64,000 nucleotides of DNA, from the NCBI GenBank assembly GCA_029077825.1, contig JAQNCT010000001.1, forward strand, positions 62,001-126,000, in the 5' to 3' direction. The stretch comes from Acidocella sp. Lineage in GTDB: Bacteria > Pseudomonadota > Alphaproteobacteria > Acetobacterales > Acetobacteraceae. Below, in pieces: positions 5,584-7,501 of the stretch. A program made the position numbers and the translations under genes. Numbering within the stretch: position 1 is the first letter of the stretch; each line of letters starts with the position of its first letter. The notes under the pieces were generated by a model. It had not been told where the DNA came from and ran no database searches. It worked only from the letters and a program-made list of their open reading frames with translations.

Positions 5584-6357
5584 ATGCCGTATGAAACAAT
5601 TTTGGTGGAAACCCATGGCCGCGTTGGTCTGATCAAACTCAACCGCCCGGCGGCTCTCAATGCTTTGTGCGACCAGCTGATGAGCGAACTGGCCACCCAG
5701 TTAAAAGCCTTTGATGCTGACCCCGCGATTGGTGCCATTGTGCTCACCGGCTCTGAAAAAGCCTTTGCCGCTGGGGCTGACATTAAGGAAATGCAGCCGC
5801 GCAGCTACCCTGGCACGGTGCTGGAAGATTTTATCTCCCCCTGGGAAGCTATCACCCACACCCGCAAGCCAGTGATCGCCGCGGTGGCAGGATTTGCCCT
5901 GGGGGGTGGCTGCGAATTGGCGATGATGTGCGACATCATGATCGCCGCTGACACCGCCAAATTCGGCCAGCCCGAAATCAACCTCGGCGTTATTCCCGGT
6001 GCCGGTGGCTCTCAACGCCTCACCCGCGCGGTGGGCAAAGCCAAGGCGATGGATATGTGCCTTACCGCCCGCATGATGGATGCCACCGAGGCCGAACGCG
6101 CCAATCTGGTAAGCCGGGTGTTTCCCGCTGCCGAGCTGCTCCAGGAAGCGCTGAAAATGGCCGAGAAAATCGCCAATCTTTCACCCGTTGCGGTGGCGCT
6201 GGCGAAAAAGGCAGTAAATACCGCGTTTGAGACCACTTTGGCGCAGGGTGTGGCGTATGAACGCGCAAGCTTTCTTGGCCTGTTTGGCACGCCAGACCAA
6301 AAAGAGGGCATGGCAGCATTTATTGAGAAGCGTAAGCCGGTGTTCAGCCAGGGCTGA
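5584..6357 (+). CDS. Enoyl-CoA hydratase (crotonase family)
   Basis: Hydrates trans-2-enoyl-CoA in beta-oxidation. The longer frame from 5530 overlaps mutM; the ATG at 5584 has GGAG about eight bases upstream and gives 257 residues, the usual size. The oxyanion-hole segments [10 protein letters not shown] and [16 protein letters not shown] are present. The two catalytic glutamates correspond to GGGCELA and FGQPEINLG, so it looks like a true hydratase rather than an inactive family member. It follows mutM by 32 bases. In several alphaproteobacteria this gene leads into rpsT and dnaA; here the next sequence is a repeat cluster. Confidence 0.93.
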
Positions 6358-6408
6358 GCGATACGGTGTGGCCTTCTACGCGCGGGCAGACAATCGCCAG
6401 CCCCCACC

Positions 6409-6660
6409 AATTTGTCACTCCCGTCACCCTTTTGTCATTCCTGCCACTTTTTTGTCATTCCCGCGAAGGCGGGAACCTCACGACCTGGAGGAGATCCTCG
6501 CCTGCGCGAGGATGACGGGGGTGGCAGGAGGATGGCGGTAACGCGAGGATAACGGGGGGGGGGGCGCAAGGATGACTGGGTTGGCGCGAGGATGACAGGG
6601 AGTGGCGAGAGTGACAGGGGGGGGGCGAGAGTGACTGGGAGTGGCGGGAGTGACAGGGGG
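6409..6660. repeat. Cluster of short degenerate repeats with an inverted GTCATTCC/GAGGATGAC arrangement
   Basis: The 337-base gap 6358-6694 holds no believable gene. The left part has three units beginning TTGTCAYTCC (near 6411, 6431 and 6451). The third runs into the palindrome CCCGCGAAGGCGGG at 6460-6473. The right part (about 6506-6660) has seven imperfect head-to-tail units of about 19-22 bases with consensus near GCGAGGATGACAGGGAGTG, the reverse complement of the left units. A run of 11 G lies at 6554-6564. Related GTCATTCCCGCGAAGGCGGG repeats are scattered through many proteobacterial genomes. It could fold into a long hairpin between the convergent hydratase and xthA genes and act as a transcription barrier. 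Confidence 0.8.
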
Positions 6661-6694
6661 GCAAAGAGGAATGGCTGAACGGAATGCCCCGCGC

Positions 6695-7501
6695 TTAAAC
6701 CTTCAGCGTTACACTCACCGGCACATGGTCAGAAGGTTGCACCCAGTCACGCGCGTCAACCAAAATTTTATGACTGACCAAATTTTCAGCCAAATCATCT
6801 GACACCCAAACATGGTCCAGACGCCGCCCGCGGTTGGAGGCGCGCCAATCCCGGTTGCGGTATGACCACCACGTGTAAAGCTTCTCCTCGGCTGGCACAA
6901 AATGCCGCAACGCATCGGTAAAACCTTGCGCCATCCAATTATTCAGGCCGGTGGTTTCAACCGGCGTGTGGCTGACAATTGCAAGCAGCTGCTTGTGATT
7001 CCAAACATCATTCTCCAACGGGGCGATATTCAAATCCCCCACCAGCACGGCGCGATGCGGGGGATATTTGGCAAAATGCGCACGGGCTTGCGCGATAAAA
7101 TCCAGTTTATGACCAAATTTAATGTTCTGGTCACGGTCTGGAATATCGCCGCCCGCTGGTACGTAAAAATTATGGATAATCACCGGCGATGTACCGGTAT
7201 GAAGCTGCGCTGAGATATGCCGACAGTCGTTTTTCTCGCACCAGTCGGGTGTATCGGCCACCAGGCTTAGCGGCAATTTCGAAAATATCGCCACACCATT
7301 ATAACTTTTCATACCGCGCTTTAGTACATAAGGAAATCCGATGCTGGCGCCAAGCGTTTCAGGAAACGCATCATCAGGCACTTTGGTTTCCTGCAAACAA
7401 ATCACATCAGGTTGCAAACCGCTGATCAGCGAGTCTAGTAAGCCCTGGCGCAGCCGCAGCGAATTAACATTCCAAGTCGCAATGGTAAGGTTTTTTGTCA
7501 T
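6695..7501 (-). CDS. xthA: Exodeoxyribonuclease III
   Basis: AP endonuclease and 3' to 5' exonuclease of base-excision repair, a functional partner of MutM in this window. It has 268 residues, normal for the EEP superfamily. Visible motifs are WNVNSLR near the N-terminus, CLQETK with the metal-binding glutamate at residue 38, FYVPAGG, GDLNIAP with the Asp-x-Asn pair, RRLDHVW, and the C-terminal SDHVPV with the catalytic histidine. It is the last gene of a ten-gene minus-strand run and starts 31 bases after lolA. Its 3' end faces the repeat cluster. Confidence 0.96.
   Translation of the reverse strand: MTKNLTIATWNVNSLRLRQGLLDSLISGLQPDVICLQETKVPDDAFPETLGASIGFPYVLKRGMKSYNGVAIFSKLPLSLVADTPDWCEKNDCRHISAQLHTGTSPVIIHNFYVPAGGDIPDRDQNIKFGHKLDFIAQARAHFAKYPPHRAVLVGDLNIAPLENDVWNHKQLLAIVSHTPVETTGLNNWMAQGFTDALRHFVPAEEKLYTWWSYRNRDWRASNRGRRLDHVWVSDDLAENLVSHKILVDARDWVQPSDHVPVSVTLKV

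Follow-up and report, generated by a model that had tools for sequence, protein, structure and literature searches.

Between two convergent genes of an Acidocella sp., one encoding an enoyl-CoA hydratase family protein (ECH) and the other an exonuclease III-like protein (xthA), lies a head-to-head pair of CGTC-type REP hairpins of the published CGTC-1 kind, and outward of each hairpin stands a tandem array of copies of its 5' half. Such half-unit arrays recur beside hairpins of the same family elsewhere in this genome and in other genomes of the genus, where they stand predominantly 5' of the tag and end sharply at the junction of stem and loop, after the last base of the 5' arm. Because of this sharp end, the one-sidedness, the agreement in stem type between arrays and their hairpins, and spacers that appear to derive from the flank, we consider hairpin-anchored local duplication the probable origin of the arrays, through a replication mechanism, and in a direction, that we infer. 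In the available portions of the open-access (CC-licensed PMC) literature, a search found no description of half-REP arrays.

The repeat cluster between ECH and xthA

The cluster occupies positions 6358-6694 of the window, by which we mean the whole stretch of 64,000 nucleotides analysed, and is bounded by the open reading frames of ECH (5584..6357, + strand) and xthA (6695..7501, - strand), both of which point their 3' ends toward the repeat. A first-pass annotation of this DNA had given the order ubiE-mutM-ECH-(gap)-xthA, with ECH and xthA on opposite strands, and the reading frames and the comparison with relatives agree with it. It had also counted at least ten short repeat units, which are real: 10 sites in these 337 bp match GTCAYYCYCGC with at most one mismatch (6 of them exactly, hairpin arms being counted), while 500 dinucleotide shuffles of the same interval gave a mean of 0.19 sites and a maximum of 2, and the remainder of the 64 kb window has 11. 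The palindrome that it reported (CCCGCGAAGGCGGG, 6460-6473) and the 11-base G run (6554-6564) are likewise present, and a second run, of 9, begins at 6617.

The same annotation had sorted the units into inverted and tandem families. Direct families, spaced at 17-23 nt, and inverted arms do exist, but rather than a loose mix they make up an ordered pair of hairpins with half-units on the outside. The left hairpin (6454..6475, + strand) has the tag (T)GTC, the stem type TTCCCGC and the loop GAAG, and the right one (6495..6516, - strand) has the tag (C)GTC, the stem type TCCTCGC and the loop GCAG; with their tags outward, the two form a head-to-head, heterotypic pair. Outward of them are two clear half-units on the left and six on the right, together with degenerate ones. 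In the left array (6414..6444, + strand), copies of GTCA plus the 5' arm lie at 6414 and 6434, with one mismatch each, and a degenerate copy at 6423. The right array (6526..6654, - strand) has units with 5' ends at 6536 (degenerate), 6553, 6576, 6596, 6615, 6635 and 6654, spaced at 17-23 nt, of which the inner ones resemble the TCCT hairpin and the outer three (CTCT, CTCT and CTCC) do not; the 11-base G run is a portion of the spacer between two of these right-hand half-units. A scan of 6200-6850 for promoters and terminators returned nothing relevant, and a search of the window for structured RNA families returned three tRNAs only.

The hairpin family

A hairpin pattern search of the genome under study (G000), belonging to a genus that we take to be placed in Acetobacteraceae, yielded 82 copies against 0 for the reversed control pattern, counts that are not fully independent because some hairpins, on C86 and C99, have been copied in tandem. 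In the 436 kb of G000 that were fetched, 69 perfect 7-bp hairpins follow GTCA, and each of nine other feet is followed by 0-1. When sites are collected by the frame GTCA-4-CGC-4-GCG-4, all 70 keep all four unconstrained pairs (69 are fully Watson-Crick and one has a G-U pair), with 2, 4, 1 and 2 Watson-Crick pair types at the four variable stem positions; in a control with seven other feet, none of 21 sites is fully paired. The changes in the stem are compensatory. At two places in G000 (L077:7437-8329 and L076:8700-9200), the unit repeated in tandem is a complete head-to-head pair together with its long flanks, in 3-4 copies, with a period of about 150 bp on C86.

With CGTC-1 REPs, as the available portions of Di Nocera et al. 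(2013; PMC3733652) describe them, the elements share the GTC tag and a short, G+C-rich stem of varying types; in the same portions, the group includes Neisseria dRS3 and Rickettsia RPE-6. The terminal tag of CGTC-1 REPs is CGTC, often TGTC, and here the + hairpin has TGTC and the - hairpin CGTC; the loop of 4 nt is the same. The CGTC-1 stem of 8 bp, starting with a paired A-T, is matched by the - hairpin (8 bp, A with T), while the + hairpin has 7 bp (tail ACC), and stems of both lengths occur throughout the genome, many of them 7 bp long. The tail differs, being near CCA in CGTC-1 REPs and mostly CCT, TCT or CCC here; most published CGTC-1 tails, not all, fit CCA in the available portions of PMC3733652, and the mismatch therefore lowers the exact subfamily assignment and not that to the superfamily. 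As CGTC-1 REPs mostly do, the hairpins of G000 pair head-to-head (13 pairs, all heterotypic, against 3 tail-to-tail within 60 nt). Heterotypy was considered as a rule for such pairs and rejected: it holds for 13/13 in G000 and 3/3 in G018, but for 4/9 in G006, 5/9 in G010 and 3/4 in G015. The position at gene 3' ends, in convergent or co-directional gaps, is also the same (24 convergent, 8 co-directional and 1 divergent here), as is the lack of a dedicated flanking transposase, the one RAYT of the genome having no GTCA hairpin in the 8 kb around it. Although CGTC repeats are stated to be missing in Acetobacteraceae in the available portions of PMC3733652, CGTC REPs do occur in a lineage of that family.

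The arrays set these elements apart: half-units 5' of the tag are not among the features of CGTC-1 REPs described in the portions of PMC3733652 at hand. REPINs and BIMEs (Bertels and Rainey 2011, PMC3116915, in the portions available) are alike in that two hairpins are paired in inverted orientation, at times clustered in tandem along with their flanks, but they repeat whole REPINs or REPs and have the tag GTAG, whereas here the 5' half alone is repeated and the tag is GTCA. In RAYT-mobilised GTAG REPs and REPINs, moreover, the RAYT is flanked by the same REP, unlike the RAYT here, which stands without such hairpins. The TM/PIT intrastrand triplex motif (Holder et al. 2015, PMC4666352), as far as available portions of that paper go, likewise joins a hairpin to an adjacent direct copy of one arm, but with one copy, a 3-nt spacer and an unrelated E. 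coli consensus, whereas here there can be as many as 11 copies, separated by spacers of 6-12 nt. Judging from its bases, the arm here appears ill-suited to a regular triplex.

Structure, turnover and origin of the half-unit arrays

The repeated unit consists of the tag GTCA, the 7-nt 5' arm and a local spacer of 6-12 nt, and the array, with a period of 18-22 nt, lies 5' of the tag. Half-units were counted after hairpins too close to the end of a locus, and those that recurred with an identical 60 nt, had been dropped (66 of 69 were kept in G000). Within 105 nt of a hairpin and at no more than one mismatch, same-strand half-units of G000 number 57 on the 5' side and 6 on the 3' side, with 40 and 5, respectively, of the 66 hairpins having any. 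The corresponding 5'/3' numbers, which for relatives come from the fetched part of the pattern matches only, are 70/5 in G006, 11/0 in G010, 4/0 in G018 and 8/0 in G015, all of the same genus, and 2/0 in G030, 0/0 in G028 and 0/0 in G023, of other genera. The array of the pair partner lies near the 3' side, and opposite-strand units are accordingly expected there (they number 6, 15, 1, 0 and 7 in the five genomes of the genus).

Compared with their hairpins, the 177 units of 89 phased arrays have an identity of 0.87-0.97 to position 10, which falls to 0.40 at position 11 and to at most 0.22 at positions 12-15. When units are sorted into exact 8-nt types, they share the type of their own hairpin in 42/48 cases in G000 and 54/63 in G006, where the maxima of 5000 shuffles are 26 and 35; in genomes with few units the match is 7/9 in G010 (a value reached by 28 of 5000 shuffles) and 6/6 in G015 (50 of 5000), and it is weak in G018 (3/4, reached by 406 of 5000). 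The spacers of the 89 phased arrays are pyrimidine-rich (C 0.44, T 0.38, A 0.12, G 0.07) and locus-specific, with a similarity of 0.80 within arrays and 0.39 between them, for which the permutation maximum is 0.44.

Arrays are rare elsewhere in the class and common in this lineage, since an exact half-unit adjoins 14 of 44 hairpins in G000 against 9 of 875 in other class genomes, a comparison by exact patterns and for two stem types only, in which 875 is a manual sum over the 71 of 384 genomes searched that hold such hairpins. On these numbers, half-unit arrays are about 30 times commoner in this genome than elsewhere in the class.

Orthologous gaps, compared with gene calls from a simple, purpose-made codon-usage caller that also served the gap statistics below, show turnover of arrays and joint change of hairpin and array. 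At one such gap hairpin and unit are both TTCC in G000 (L090) and both TCCC in G010 (L218), and a similar 3' flank follows. At another, TACC in L088 corresponds to TACT in L218, a compensated change at the same site. In the gap shared by L095, L204 and L231, from three genomes, a TTCC hairpin with a conserved 3' flank carries arrays of 3, 5 and 2 units whose spacers differ; the G006 array there includes TACC units, which departs from strict matching. At L099/L221 G000 has an array and G010 has none.

We propose that such arrays grow from a CGTC-type REP pair lying between convergent genes. Replication would slip or switch template after copying the 5' arm, on meeting the rest of the hairpin, and about 20 nt (upstream flank, tag and arm) would be copied again in each event, such that each hairpin would extend outward a tandem array of its own 5' half; further slippage, with homogenisation between units, would keep the array and the hairpin arms of one type. 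The spacers bear on this proposal in that the outermost ones resemble their own pre-array flank (best 7-mer score 4.95 against 4.25 when permuted, reached by 0 of 300 permutations) and do not resemble the hairpin's own 3' tail (4.00 against 4.32). The duplicated flank is only partly visible, because per-base agreement with the spacers is about 0.4-0.7 in the 10 nt that precede the outermost unit, below the 0.6-0.9 found among the inner spacers. Counted against duplication are the three outermost right-hand units in the window, which differ from the TCCT stem, and the hairpins that stand alone: among 198 hairpins in five genomes, 109 are without a phased unit, 40 have one, and 49 have two or more, up to 11.

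The half-units could instead be what remains of tandem whole REPs after loss of the loop and the 3' arm, a reading that agrees with the intact tags and arms of the units and with the occasional tandem whole REPs (C86, C99). The spacers, however, are like the pre-array flank and unlike the 3' tail of the REP, which favours a local duplication that takes in flank, tag and 5' arm over such losses, and we regard the losses as very unlikely. A RAYT that recognises the GTC tag might also place or copy half-units as by-products of REP mobilisation; the half-units do carry the tag, and the genome has one clear, intact-looking RAYT (L117:3837-4367, - strand, on contig C38; NF047646, 205.7 bits against a cut-off of 80). 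The stretch around this gene is free of GTCA hairpins, however, and Y1_Tnp occurs in 5 of 38 genus genomes, with no match in the array-rich G006 or in the array-bearing G018 and G015; in the available portions of PMC3733652, Di Nocera et al. found no case of CGTC repeats flanking a tyrosine transposase. RAYT involvement in the arrays is thus unlikely. An open reading frame near the RAYT (L117:5192-5500, - strand) resembles, on visual inspection, a degraded fragment of a second RAYT copy, without NCBIfam support.

Hairpin-anchored duplication, our preferred reading, can be carried a step further, though only as a tentative suggestion: REP hairpins might serve as local printing sites, from which tag, 5' arm and spacer are copied directionally outward, with feedback on the hairpin itself. 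If this were true, both stem arms and the array would change type together, which would account for the perfect compensation with which REP stems diversify; in the portions of the REP literature available, we found no explanation of how stems change while their arms stay complementary. Half-unit arrays that match their hairpins and turn over would form a natural record of hairpin-anchored copying, testable in a culturable acidophile.

Transcription ends and the history of the junction

In the fetched loci, hairpins occur in 24 of 43 convergent gaps and in 9 of 151 others (8/96 co-directional and 1/55 divergent; Fisher 3.7e-12), fractions that are not genome-wide, since repeat content was the main reason for choosing these 436 kb of G000. 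A preference for convergent gaps is likewise published for REPs (PMC3733652, in the portions available). The repeats had been suggested to act as a transcription barrier between the converging genes, and both this enrichment and the composition of the 5' flanks are compatible with that suggestion: C is 0.41 and G 0.17 over the 60 nt on the 5' side of hairpins, against C 0.26 and G 0.28 over the 60 nt after stops in hairpin-free convergent gaps. Such C-rich, G-poor sequence upstream is what a Rho-dependent terminator would have, and it is possible that the repeats help to end the transcripts of both converging genes.

In a stronger form, the arrays would be kept by selection as part of a functional bidirectional transcription end, made up of C-rich, G-poor, rut-like (Rho) RNA and then a hairpin. 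Besides the gap and flank data, this form would account for spacers with C 0.44 and G 0.07, and for the folding of both strands of the repeat region, each better than 100/100 shuffles (z -3.6 and -4.8). Intrinsic-terminator-like sites, however, are no rarer with repeats than without (11/24 repeat-bearing convergent gaps against 7/19, p 0.76), and on these numbers the idea that the repeats replace intrinsic terminators was rejected. As the locus-specific spacers are explained by duplication, and relatives have no arrays, or far shorter ones, at the same gap, we find selection for a transcription end a doubtful account of the arrays.

The junction itself is shared among relatives. The order dfp-ubiE-mutM-ECH-(gap)-xthA-lolA-marR-pepB is kept in G018, G006, G004 and G010 (in G010 a contig break inside ECH divides it between two contigs), and ECH and xthA are convergent in all four, these being the relatives with a complete gap; in G035 the left side of the junction is present and the contig ends inside the gap. 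The content of the gap differs in each of the four: G018 has a TTCC hairpin with one half-unit, G006 has one hairpin, and G004 (L066), whose ECH is 82% identical, has a different long palindrome and no CGTC repeat.

The first-pass annotation had taken ECH to be normally continued by rpsT and dnaA in many alphaproteobacteria, and had read the repeats as a possible mark of a rearrangement at this break in gene order. rpsT and dnaA could be located, adjacent to each other on contig C108 and not on the ECH contig, and in G018, G006 and G010 they also lie together on contigs other than that of ECH. All 20 rpsT/dnaA loci tested, 16 of them with only about 1.5 kb of flank, are without ECH, mutM and xthA. 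That ECH and xthA are neighbours is clade-specific, as only 4 of 80 xthA loci from public genomes have ECH within 3 kb (3 Acidocella and 1 Acetobacteraceae; it is missing there from the other 76, in some because the contig ends), and this much would suit a breakpoint. The junction, however, is common to relatives including G004, which is free of the repeat, and a search for the same repeats elsewhere in the genome found the 82 hairpins at dozens of ordinary gaps; the rearrangement reading therefore fails, and it is extremely improbable that the repeats are the breakpoint that parted ECH from rpsT-dnaA.

Other contents of these gaps can be recorded. In G010 the ECH-xthA gap holds a Y-family (IMS, PF00817) polymerase gene and an 85-aa open reading frame without a Pfam match (L067:436-1973). 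In G035 the gap after ECH starts with a different palindrome (GTCATGGCCGGG...CCCGGCCATGAC; L065:7778-7846), followed by the contig end. The loci of G004 have mainly the stem type TGCC.
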